Of a stretch of DNA of 40,171 bases, positions 29,329 to 33,245 are shown piece by piece (within the stretch, counting starts at the first letter, position 1; every line of letters starts with the position of its first letter). The position numbers were made by a program, and so were the translations under genes. The DNA is from Candidatus Omnitrophota bacterium (GTDB taxonomy: Bacteria; Omnitrophota; Gorgyraeia; Pluralincolimonadales; Pluralincolimonadaceae), in assembly GCA_028716565.1 (NCBI GenBank), contig JAQUPL010000011.1:1-40171 (forward strand), in the 5' to 3' direction. The notes under the pieces are model-generated. The model was not told the origin of the DNA, searched no databases, and worked only from the letters and a program-made list of their open reading frames with translations.

Positions 29329-29895
29329 TTATTTATTTTTCCACTCATACGAGCCGGACGCATTCATCACCTCGATGGGCGTCCCGGCAGGAGCGTCGTT
29401 CTGCAGGCGCTGCGCGTAAAGTTTCTGCACATCTCCGAGAGGCGCGCCGTTCTTCTGCGATATCTCTTTGTATATCGCCATCCTGTCGGCATTTTCCGCG
29501 CTGATAAGGTCCGCGGGAGCGCCGCTTCCCTTCGCCTCGACCATACCGGACCTATTCTCGCCTATAACGCCTTTTTCCTCAAGCGATGTAAGTTCCGCGT
29601 ACCTGGCCTTACGCCTTGCCGCCGCCTGCTGCACTTCCGGCGATAAAGATTCCTCGGCATAAGCATTGACCATGAGGAAATTCAATTTCATGCCGCCTTC
29701 CGGTTTCGGCGCGGCTTTGCCGGATACCGCGTTCTCGATAGCGTTGATGTCGCTTGTCACATGCTGGTACACATCGAGCCGCATGGTCACGTCGACCTTT
29801 ATCGCTTCTTTCGGCGCCTTGACCTGCATGCTCATGCATCCCGTACCCAAAAACACGGCCAGCGAGACCGCCAAGACTGCTATTCCTTTTTTCAT
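29329..29895 (-). CDS. Fused YnbE-YdbL-like lipoprotein
   Basis: This 188-residue protein carries a lipoprotein signal (LGTGC, lipid cysteine C20). Residues about 24-58 (VKAPKEAIKVDVTMRLDVYQ onward) match E. coli YnbE, a 61-residue outer-membrane lipoprotein that extends the YdbH bridge. Residues about 90-188 match YdbL/DUF1318: AARRKARYAELTSLEEKGV, GENRSG, YKEISQKNGAPLGDVQ, and the end with GSYEWKNK. In E. coli these are two separate genes next to ydbH. Here they are one reading frame, joined by a stretch around residues 68-82 ending A-Y-A-E-E, which resembles a leftover signal peptide and might be cleaved. It lies 13 bases after the YdbH-like gene with a good AAGGAG site. Confidence 0.8.
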   Translation of the reverse strand: MKKGIAVLAVSLAVFLGTGCMSMQVKAPKEAIKVDVTMRLDVYQHVTSDINAIENAVSGKAAPKPEGGMKLNFLMVNAYAEESLSPEVQQAAARRKARYAELTSLEEKGVIGENRSGMVEAKGSGAPADLISAENADRMAIYKEISQKNGAPLGDVQKLYAQRLQNDAPAGTPIEVMNASGSYEWKNK

Positions 29896-29907
29896 CTTTT
29901 CTTCTCC

Positions 29908-30771
29908 TTAAAATCCGTGCAATGCGACCGTAACGTCCCTTTTCCCTTTCGCCCCTTCCAGGATCACATGCAAAAGTATCGAATCCTTGTTCCTTGATAC
30001 TCCAAGCGTCCCCTTCGTGAAGTCATAATTCCCGAAACTGTCCTCGATAAGCGAAAGCGGCTGTTTCGTGTTATCCGCGAGCCTTTTGAGAATCTCCTTG
30101 TCGGTTATGACCAGCGAGCCTCCCGGCGCCGCGGTCGAAAAATCCCCTTTTATATCGGTGATATCCTTCTGCTCGCCGCGCAGCGCGATCGCGCCGCTCA
30201 TAATGCCTTTCATCTCCACGCGGCCTTCGGCATTCAACCCTTTCGGCAGCAAGGCAAGGTCGATCCCCCCGGCTTCGATCTTCGCGTCATAGACTACCGC
30301 CTTGCCTGTCTTCATATTGCCGCTCGCGAGGAGACTAAGTTTCCAGTCGGCCGTATTCAGTTCCACTGCCATGCCCGTTATGATGAGCGATCTGACCACA
30401 AAAGCCTTCCCGGGTTTGAGGGCCGGATATTCGATAATGTCGCGTAATTTTTTTCCGGGAGAGTTGAATTCCAAAGAGCCGCCCTTGACGGTTACCTCGG
30501 GTATTATCTTCGTAAATAATGAAAGCGGCGAAAATCTTATCTCTACCTGCTTGATACGGTAGCGCAGGGCATCGCCTTTCTTTACGTCGATTCCGGTGAT
30601 CGCGATCAAATCAGCGCTCCGCACCTCAATGCCGTCGATAGAGACATCGCAGCCGGGAAACGCGCTTTTGATCTGCCCGCCGGCGATATCGGCTACCAGA
30701 GACCTGCCGAACAGCCACAAGGCCAGCACGACCGCCAGTATTACCGCGAAAATGACTAATTCCCGTCTCAT
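29908..30771 (-). CDS. Short YdbH-like AsmA-superfamily protein
   Basis: This 287-residue protein has one N-terminal membrane helix (about 5-24), then repeating beta strands of AsmA type (IKSAFPGCDVSIDGIEVRS, VEIRFSPLSLFTKIIPEVTV, GSLEFNSPGK). Its C-terminal part, SFGNYDFTKGTLGVSR onward with LHVILEGAKG, fits the YdbH end. E. coli YdbH has about 880 residues and is thought to form a lipid-conducting bridge between membranes with YnbE. This form is only one third as long, which could not span the periplasm as a single chain. Identification rests on fold pattern plus the YnbE-YdbL neighbour. It overlaps the GH94 gene stop by four bases (ATGA). Confidence 0.7.
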   Translation of the reverse strand: MRRELVIFAVILAVVLALWLFGRSLVADIAGGQIKSAFPGCDVSIDGIEVRSADLIAITGIDVKKGDALRYRIKQVEIRFSPLSLFTKIIPEVTVKGGSLEFNSPGKKLRDIIEYPALKPGKAFVVRSLIITGMAVELNTADWKLSLLASGNMKTGKAVVYDAKIEAGGIDLALLPKGLNAEGRVEMKGIMSGAIALRGEQKDITDIKGDFSTAAPGGSLVITDKEILKRLADNTKQPLSLIEDSFGNYDFTKGTLGVSRNKDSILLHVILEGAKGKRDVTVALHGF

Positions 30772-33245
30772 CTTTTAAATATATGCCTTACGGCCTTACC
30801 CTTCAGGTTATACCTCACTTCGATATCCCCGCCATGGAAATCATCCGGGACGAGCTTGGGCTTCAACGCGGCTTTCCCGAAATTGAATTTTACGCCGAGG
30901 ACTTCGTCTATCAGCGTATAAATATACCAGCTCGCCGAACCGGTCAGGTAAAAATAAAGCCCCCGGCCCTCGTTATTGAAATATTCCGGTATCATGGGGT
31001 ATATCCGGGCCGCCTCGCCCGTCGACATCTTATAGACGGAATCGAAGACCTCGCGCCCTTCCTTAATGAAACCTCTTTTATACAGGGCATTCGCCAGCAT
31101 CACGTTCATGTGGTTGAAGAACGCCCCGTTCTCCTTGTCGCCGTAGGCGAAACCGAACGCGCGGCCGAGGTCCATATATACCGTCCTGAAATCGGTCCCG
31201 AGGCGGAACCCGCCGAGCCCCGGGTCCTTCAGGTATTTTTTGATAGATTGCCACATCTTCCTTATCTGGCTGTCGGTCGCGCAGCCGCTCATTATCGCGA
31301 AGACCTGCGAAGCTAGCTTCATGCGCACTTTGTCGCCGGATTTTCCCTCCACGCGGCGGCCCTTGTTATCATAGTAGCCGTTGAAAAAACCCGCACCCTC
31401 AAGCCATTCTTTTTTCCTAAGCCACGCAAAGAGATGGTCGGCTTTCTTGTCCAGGTCCGCGATCAGGTCGTCGATATCCACCTCGACCGCTTCGCCGGTG
31501 ATGCTCCTGCAGGATTCGAGGTATTCCTCGAGCCGCCTCTGTTTCTCTTTATAATTATCATAATCGACCGGGGTGCCCAGGTTATCGAGCAGCATCAGGA
31601 ATTCCGTCAATAATTTAACGCTCTTATGCCTCTTCTTCATCTCCTCGAGGATGACGCAGATGTCGCGCAGGTTATACGCATACATGAAACTGAACGCCAC
31701 GCTCTCGCCCCTGTCGGCCGCCATGTCGAGCCCGTCGTCCCAGTCGGCGTTCTCGAGGCGTATGACGTTATGCTCGCCGACGTTGAAGAATTGGACGACG
31801 TTCTGGACGAGGATATGCTCGAGGACACTGCCCCTGTATATCCTCCCGGAATTGTCGCGCTGGATGAAATCCGGCTGGTTGAAATCCTTATCTATAAATT
31901 TGGCGCGCTTGAGCTGGTAGTCCCTGAAATATTCGGCCTTATTCAGCATGAAACCGGAGTCGCCCGTCTTTTGGATATAAAGGCGGGCCGTAAGGTACGG
32001 CCATATCCCGTGGTCCATCCAGACGCGGCTTATCCTGTTGCGGTCGGCGGTGAACTTTCCGTCTTTAGCGATGACCGTCGCGTTCGAGCCGTCGAGCCGC
32101 ACGCCGCGGAAACTGTCGAATATGAAATCCCTCGCCTTCTCCGGCTCGGTCAGCAAAAGCGTCAGCGCGTCCTGCCAGATATCGCGCCAGCCGCGGCCGC
32201 CCTTTCCGTAATCATAGTGCGGCAGGAACGAGTTGCCGAATAATTTCCTGAGGGTCGGCTGCATCTTGACCCATAGCAGCCAGTTATTGAAGTCGCCGTC
32301 GTTGAAATCGAACTCGAGCTTCGAAAGGTATTGCTGCCAGTATCTCTTCGTCGCCTCGAGGCTCTTTTCGACCTTTGACGGCGAGTTCAGGCCCTTGAAT
32401 ATCTTTTTTACGCCTTTCCTGTCGTCGGCAATGCCCATCACGAGGATATAATCGGCCCTGCCGCCTTTTTTCAGTTTTTTGCGGTTGAACCTGAACGCGG
32501 CGCACGCTTCTTTCCCGTCGGATTCCGGGAGTTTTTTCGCGGCGGGCTTCACATATTTCTCTACCGCGTCCGGGAATATCAGGTCGCCCTCGCCGCAGAA
32601 CATACCTATCGTCGGGAATTGCCCTGCCGGCGCCTTGCCGTTATCCTCGCAGCCGAATACGGAATAATCCGTCTTGTTCTCGGTGTGGCCCTTCTCGTCG
32701 AATATCATCGTCGGTTTGAGGGATATGCCGTACCTGTCGAGGTAGACGCGGTTCAAGAGCGAGCTCACATGCCTGTGGTCGCGGATATTCTTCTCGCTGC
32801 GGCCGTATAACGGGATGAAAGACGTCGGCGTTATCTCGACCTCTTTGCCCCTTTTATTTGTGACGCGGACGCGCATGACCTCTACGGCCGTATTGAACGG
32901 GATGAAATTCAGCACCTCTATCTCGAGGCCGTGGGCCTGTTTCGTGACCTTATGGTACAGGAAACCCGCCTCGATGACATCATCGTGCGGGTAAGAGAGC
33001 CGTATTATCTCATTCCCTATTTTGATGAAGAAATCGCGGCGGCAGAAGAGGTTGTTGCGGACGTCCTCGATGCTCGCCGGCGGCGTAAGGAAATGGTCGT
33101 TGTCCCGCTTGATATCCCCGCCGAGGTTGGGGCTTATAGAAGACAGCAGCTTCCCGTCTTTATCGGCCAGCGGGAAATACAGGTTATACTTGTGCGGGTC
33201 TTTTACGGTGAACGTGCCTTTATCGTCAATGAATCTATAGATCAT
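30768..33245 (-). CDS. GH94-family glycoside phosphorylase
   Basis: This 825-residue cytoplasmic enzyme has the layout of cellobiose-phosphorylase-like GH94 proteins: an N-terminal beta-sandwich (about 1-290), a linker, an alpha/alpha barrel (about 330-760) and a C-terminal beta part. GRGWRDIWQD and ENADWDDGLD (the aspartate region used as the general acid) are family hallmarks, and NGAFFNHMNVMLANALYKRG completes the active cleft. It would split a disaccharide with phosphate to give a sugar phosphate; the substrate could be cellobiose, laminaribiose or similar, and cannot be chosen. There is no signal peptide. Repeat copy B lies just upstream. Phosphate use may explain its place before phosphate genes, but that is speculation. 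Confidence 0.85.
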   Translation of the reverse strand: MIYRFIDDKGTFTVKDPHKYNLYFPLADKDGKLLSSISPNLGGDIKRDNDHFLTPPASIEDVRNNLFCRRDFFIKIGNEIIRLSYPHDDVIEAGFLYHKVTKQAHGLEIEVLNFIPFNTAVEVMRVRVTNKRGKEVEITPTSFIPLYGRSEKNIRDHRHVSSLLNRVYLDRYGISLKPTMIFDEKGHTENKTDYSVFGCEDNGKAPAGQFPTIGMFCGEGDLIFPDAVEKYVKPAAKKLPESDGKEACAAFRFNRKKLKKGGRADYILVMGIADDRKGVKKIFKGLNSPSKVEKSLEATKRYWQQYLSKLEFDFNDGDFNNWLLWVKMQPTLRKLFGNSFLPHYDYGKGGRGWRDIWQDALTLLLTEPEKARDFIFDSFRGVRLDGSNATVIAKDGKFTADRNRISRVWMDHGIWPYLTARLYIQKTGDSGFMLNKAEYFRDYQLKRAKFIDKDFNQPDFIQRDNSGRIYRGSVLEHILVQNVVQFFNVGEHNVIRLENADWDDGLDMAADRGESVAFSFMYAYNLRDICVILEEMKKRHKSVKLLTEFLMLLDNLGTPVDYDNYKEKQRRLEEYLESCRSITGEAVEVDIDDLIADLDKKADHLFAWLRKKEWLEGAGFFNGYYDNKGRRVEGKSGDKVRMKLASQVFAIMSGCATDSQIRKMWQSIKKYLKDPGLGGFRLGTDFRTVYMDLGRAFGFAYGDKENGAFFNHMNVMLANALYKRGFIKEGREVFDSVYKMSTGEAARIYPMIPEYFNNEGRGLYFYLTGSASWYIYTLIDEVLGVKFNFGKAALKPKLVPDDFHGGDIEVRYNLKGKAVRHIFKR

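Follow-up and report, generated by a model that had tools for sequence, protein, structure and literature searches.

On the minus strand of the window, the whole stretch of 40,171 nucleotides analysed here, two open reading frames lie 12 nt apart at the positions given in an earlier note on this DNA, encoding a short YdbH-type protein of 287 aa and a fused YnbE-YdbL lipoprotein of 188 aa (Table 1). The minus-strand gene order runs from a TrpB-like enzyme and a GH94 enzyme, whose gene overlaps that of the short YdbH by 4 nt, through the short YdbH and the fused lipoprotein to YggU (DUF167) and a HAD phosphatase, followed by a response regulator and a histidine kinase, both assigned by reading the sequence. 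The GH94-type phosphorylase gene (30768-33245, minus strand) was seen beside ydbH solely in the nearest relatives.

The genome to which the window belongs (1.73 Mb, 97% complete) has a single DUF1318 gene. Named relatives are nearly all Omnitrophota MAGs, and one record from the same genus shares 88% identity over the lipoprotein. An assembly error or frameshift was considered as the cause of the fusion and rejected, because the same fusion is present in many independent assemblies.

Table 1 Features of the ydbH and fused ynbE-ydbL genes in the window.
Feature	Coordinates	Strand	Basis
287-aa short YdbH-type protein with one beta-groove of ~13 strands behind an N-terminal membrane helix	29908..30771	-	structure model, PDB matches, relatives' PF11739 matches
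Predicted N-terminal membrane helix, residues 2-37	30661..30768	-	secondary structure of predicted model
C-terminal end, residues 188-287, counterpart of canonical YdbH C-terminus	29911..30210	-	hhalign E 7e-7
Fused YnbE-YdbL lipoprotein, 188 aa	29329..29895	-	ORF, DUF1318 match, profile comparisons
Lipoprotein signal peptide, residues 1-19	29839..29895	-	hydrophobic stretch then GTGC; Cys20 invariant in alignment A3
YnbE module, residues 20-60, from lipidated (predicted) Cys20	29716..29838	-	profile match to canonical YnbE
Variable linker with short hydrophobic patch, residues 61-80	29656..29715	-	pLDDT 57 over residues 71-80; variable alignment columns
A-Y-A, residues 78-80, candidate internal signal peptidase I site, cut expected after Ala80	29656..29664	-	-1/-3 conservation, all four Ala codons
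YdbL domain (DUF1318 match), residues 97-177	29365..29607	-	E 9.4e-14; 28oj TM 0.80

A short YdbH-type protein

The predicted model of the 287-residue protein (mean pLDDT 89.7) consists of a long membrane helix followed by about 13 strands, and its only PDB matches at E < 0.001 are Vps13 and LPD-3, with low TM-scores of 0.25-0.36. Vps13 and LPD-3 are bridge-like lipid transfer proteins, and low TM-scores are usual for curved grooves that differ in twist. Structure prediction of each protein, which the earlier note had proposed as a check, thus recovered an AsmA/YdbH-like groove here and a YdbL fold in the lipoprotein. No Pfam model, PF11739 (YdbH) included, is matched by the window protein itself; among 61 aligned relatives, PF11739 is matched by 29 (best 3.6e-12) and the AsmA model by 23.

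Since neither of the Pfam models, for YnbE or for YdbH, recognises the window proteins, profile-profile comparison was used. When the last ~100-110 residues of the short YdbH were compared as a profile, hhalign matched them to the C-terminal end of canonical YdbH (E 7e-7, score 42.8; shuffled controls score at most 13.9) and gave no match to the canonical region preceding it. This test supersedes a comparison of the whole short YdbH with E. coli YdbH alone, in which hhalign returned 16% probability. It is the fused-lineage profile alone that matches, the C-termini of short YdbH from three-gene lineages giving 2% when compared directly with canonical YdbH. In PMC12045153, YnbE is modelled as joining E. 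coli YdbH by strand addition, and the YdbH C-terminus is the place proposed for the added strand. Sequence and predicted model together show that the short protein keeps the membrane helix and this C-terminal end, with a predicted anchor in the inner membrane. Reading frame, groove model and C-terminal match all bear out the proposal of a short YdbH of 287 residues.

At 287 aa, the protein does not reach the length for spanning the periplasm (about 880 aa), and its groove, for which 13 strands x 4.8 angstrom give ~60 angstrom as an estimate and not a measurement, cannot cross a typical periplasm alone. The genome also encodes a 970-aa AsmA/YhdP-like protein, so that the short groove need not be the sole inter-membrane route; this second protein could be a full-length one. 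TamB was looked for in the same genome and not found.

It is improbable, in our view, that the short groove forms no bridge at all and instead works in a GspN-like way at the inner membrane, where it would lift lipids or lipoproteins and YnbE-YdbL would be the cargo receptor. The groove is about as long as that of GspN, which carries lipoproteins in Acinetobacter (PMC12802150), and the GspN_Lepto model is weakly matched by the window protein and by 21 of 61 relatives (best 1.1e-12); however, the window match reaches 22.6 bits against a model cut-off of 50 (TIGR04411), and type II secretion genes were not recognised in the window. The presence of ynbE and ydbL partners throughout and the YdbH-like C-terminal end also argue against it.

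The fused lipoprotein and its conserved junction

Sequence comparison and structural modelling show that the second gene encodes a single predicted precursor, in which a YnbE module is followed by a chaperone-type YdbL domain, with a strictly conserved (A/V/I)-x-Ala in the linker that joins the two. The C-terminal half scores 52.2 bits with DUF1318 (PF07027; cut-off 27, E 9.4e-14), and its model aligns with the crystal structure of E. coli YdbL, 28oj, with a TM-score of 0.80 (by target length) and an rmsd of 2.6 over 86 columns. The N-terminal half carries a lipobox with Cys20, followed by APKEAIKVD, and the APKEPIT of E. coli YnbE corresponds to APKEPIK in the fused lipoproteins. PF13617, the Pfam YnbE model, does not match the N half in the window and is listed for 0 of 74 relatives. 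A profile built from mature N-terminal halves, with the signal peptide removed, nevertheless matches canonical YnbE with E 2.1e-6 and a score of 28.7, while 30 column-shuffled profiles score at most 15.7; with the signal peptide included, E is 6.7e-8. The YnbE traits present are the lipobox and a homologous mature segment. The earlier note had staked its assignment on YnbE and DUF1318 HMMs matching the two halves: the DUF1318 model did so above its cut-off and PF13617 did not, yet profile comparison upholds a single YnbE-YdbL lipoprotein.

YdbL here shares one reading frame with YnbE and is not a separate protein with its own signal peptide. An internal start at Met69 that would yield a separate YdbL was rejected, because no more than 5 of 73 relatives have Met at this position, and the signal peptide so created would be 12 residues long.

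The junction was analysed in alignment A3, which comprises 73 Omnitrophota fusions and was built without using any motif. Position -1 is Ala in 73/73 (GCC 44, GCG 13, GCT 13, GCA 3), position -3 is Ala in 61, Val in 11 and Ile in 1, and Tyr occupies -2 in 66. At +1, Gln, Ala, Glu, Asp or Ser occur and Pro never does. The residues at -4 and -5 vary freely, as does the linker from position 60 onward. All 73 conform to the (-3,-1) rule of signal peptidase I. Because the site is invariant in these diverged proteins and all synonymous Ala codons are used, A-Y-A is, on the evidence of the aligned genes, under strong purifying selection and not a mere or decaying remnant.

The earlier note had likened A-Y-A to a remnant signal-peptidase site; the likeness to such a site stands, and the word remnant does not, given Ala at -1 throughout and in four codons. 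In three-gene relatives the signal peptide of YdbL sits where the fusions have their junction, a position that would suit a functionless leftover of an old YdbL signal peptide, as would a partly decayed hydrophobic part. A neutral remnant of this kind is nonetheless very improbable, being largely refuted by the codon evidence, and a similar junction recurs in a second phylum. In the model, A-Y-A lies within the stretch of lowest confidence (pLDDT 57), and conservation of a site without visible structure points to a recognition site.

Distribution in Omnitrophota and a second phylum

DUF1318 is present in 53 of 145 Omnitrophota genomes. Together with the window, the loci from these genomes comprise 17 fusions, 1 decayed fusion and about 30 three-gene versions, and among 84,980 species genomes scanned there were 79 fusions of the Omnitrophota type, a set that overlaps partly with that from the 145-genome sample. 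The search for the same fusion elsewhere, which the earlier note had suggested, thus yielded about 80 genomes with the Omnitrophota-type fusion, as well as fused lipoproteins with longer AsmA-like partners in a second phylum.

The order ydbH-ynbE-ydbL is kept across Omnitrophota, and in the phylum sample the YdbH next to the lipoprotein measures 244-424 aa. It is short in fused and split operons alike, so that a small YdbH characterises the phylum and does not follow from fusion. The description of the locus as a miniature system is right in that a short YdbH accompanies the fusion, but the link between the two falls away, since three-gene Omnitrophota also have a short YdbH. In a domain tree with few columns and many open forks, the fusions of G112, G057 and G026 nest within split genes (SH-aLRT 91-95), which points to the fusion having arisen at least twice in Omnitrophota.

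Several loci depart from these arrangements. Tandem short YdbH genes of 244 and 287 aa precede the fused lipoprotein at L085:3383-4988, in the same genus as the window, and a tandem is also found at L077; the window genome has one such gene. At L137:229-2700, an 823-aa YdbH-like ORF lies near a 377-aa short YdbH, placing long and short forms at one locus. The decayed fusion L074 (genome G073) has lost the lipobox Cys and retains an A-W-A junction, and no ydbH was found upstream of it. L045 and L056 are DUF1318 lipoproteins without a YnbE module (SCREH...RLHKT), away from any ydbH, and L218, L223, L225 and L227 are DUF1318 lipoproteins with a different N module (ERTALENQVLGSY) in which the A-x-A junction is absent.

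The second phylum is that of L164, where DUF1318 occurs in 63 of 247 genomes, some of them with three-gene operons. Many encode, downstream of an AsmA-like gene of at least about 500 aa, a lipoprotein that begins C-VTVN(V/I)YFP and continues with DUF1318. All 38 VTVN-type fusions have [AVC]-[YWFHLEQ]-A-[QAEGDSK] in the linker, compared with 4.7 expected from shuffled linkers, a pattern that had been broadened once the data were known; a narrower one, [AV][YWFH]A, is found in 31, against 2.7 expected. At this junction -3 and -1 are restricted and -2 is variable. L164 itself combines a 789-aa YdbH with a YnbE-YdbL fusion that has almost no linker and no A-x-A, and from its sequence this fusion is presumably uncut. 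A second type of three-gene operon in the same phylum (L173-L183 and L189) has a YnbE-like lipoprotein with KPIHITIDVNVKVDRALDDFF, then a separate YdbL.

Proposed processing and comparison with known systems

Judging from the conserved junction, YnbE and YdbL most likely arise by cutting of a single precursor. Besides adherence to the (-3,-1) rule, this reading is favoured by the similar junction in all 38 VTVN-type fusions, by the location of the site in a low-confidence linker, in the place of a separate YdbL's signal peptide, and by the genome encoding both signal peptidase I and lipoprotein signal peptidase (II). Against it stand the L164 fusion, which lacks linker and site, and a weak hydrophobic core: the best 8-mer hydropathy before the site has a median of 1.32 in Omnitrophota fusions and 0.80 in second-phylum fusions, compared with 2.43 in true split-YdbL signal peptides. 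Both fusion medians are below the 95th percentile of the soluble-domain background (1.34), and a signal-peptide-like core was not found before the site. Given this weakness, cleavage by signal peptidase I at the junction is likely without being assured, and a motif that stays uncut and has some other role is a serious rival.

The main rival to cutting is that the fusion persists as a permanent tether, in which YdbL would be an in-cis chaperone on lipid-anchored YnbE and the conserved hydrophobic-AYA segment would act as a short linear binding motif, for instance for the YdbL or YdbH groove or for the membrane surface. The weak core suits this arrangement, as do conserved hydrophobic positions spaced as one helix face, the preference for Tyr at -2 in Omnitrophota beyond what signal peptidase needs, and L164 as an uncut fusion that is tolerated. 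It accounts poorly for second-phylum junctions that are exactly restricted at -3 and -1 yet variable at -2, and the hydrophobic-AYA segment is not confidently placed against either domain in the model. We hold an uncut fusion to be a genuine possibility, while leaning against it.

The locus is best explained as an Omnitrophota version of the YdbH-YnbE-YdbL lipid-transfer system whose precursor is cut at the internal site, an interpretation that we regard as evenly balanced. The fused precursor would be exported and lipidated at Cys20 via Lgt and LspA, and LepB (signal peptidase I) would then cut after Ala80, leaving lipid-anchored YnbE and soluble YdbL in equal amounts. The 1:1 ratio that the fusion had been suggested to fix would hold for synthesis, but not as a permanent tether if the site is cut. 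At the C-terminal edge of YdbH, YnbE would contribute a strand and so lengthen the hydrophobic groove, and YdbL would prevent self-stacking of YnbE, as proposed in E. coli. Fusion would in this way couple the synthesis and export of an aggregation-prone client to those of its chaperone, and cutting would free both. A groove this short might reach the outer membrane through stacking of YnbE, through multiple YdbH copies, of which L085 has two in tandem, or across a narrow periplasm, or it might perform a GspN-like task at the inner membrane, lifting lipids out of it.

A broader proposal, to which we lend tentative credence somewhat short of even, is that two phyla make a YnbE-type lipoprotein and YdbL as one precursor and process it on either side of the YnbE module, with lipoprotein signal peptidase acting at the Cys and signal peptidase I at an internal A-x-A whose hydrophobic core is only vestigial. 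Client and chaperone would be released 1:1, in Omnitrophota beside a YdbH that could not by itself reach across the periplasm.

The route of phospholipids to the outer membrane is a long-standing question, and a phylum-wide short YdbH raises the question of whether such proteins must span the periplasm at all. The set is a natural minimal construct for structure work, reduced to membrane helix, groove and YnbE-binding end, while the conserved internal cut-like site predicts how an aggregation-prone lipoprotein is held in check. Within the literature covered, a search for DUF1318 returned unrelated work only, and the YdbH and YnbE literature examined concerns E. coli or other proteins. The components are known ones, and they are varied here in a new way through the short YdbH, the fusion and, most of all, the conserved internal site that resembles a cut site.

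In E. coli, ydbH (879 aa), ynbE (61 aa) and ydbL (108 aa) are adjacent in that order, in agreement with the earlier note's comparison with three genes and a YdbH of about 880 residues. In the model of Kumar, Davis and Ruiz from 2024, YdbL reportedly stops runaway YnbE stacking. The window shares with this system the three components and their order, the YnbE lipobox and APKEPI motif, the DUF1318 fold of YdbL, and the membrane helix and C-terminal end of YdbH. It differs in a YdbH of 287 instead of 879 aa, in YnbE and YdbL forming one chain with a conserved internal A-x-A, and in proteins matched by neither the YnbE nor the YdbH model of Pfam.

GspN of type II secretion (PMC12802150; TIGR04411) resembles the short YdbH in its single short AsmA-like groove, N-terminal membrane helix and weak model match, whereas the window has no recognised type II secretion neighbours, has YnbE and YdbL partners and gives a match below the cut-off. 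The C-VTVN(V/I)YFP lipoproteins of the L164 phylum are alike in having an N-terminal lipobox module, a variable linker with A-x-A, DUF1318 and an AsmA-like gene upstream, but they differ in their N module, which may or may not be a YnbE, and in an upstream gene of about 500 aa or longer. The cytochrome b/c1 precursor FbcH of Bradyrhizobium offers a bacterial precedent for one chain that signal peptidase cuts internally; it has a full internal signal sequence, whereas the corresponding hydrophobic part of the fused lipoprotein is weak.
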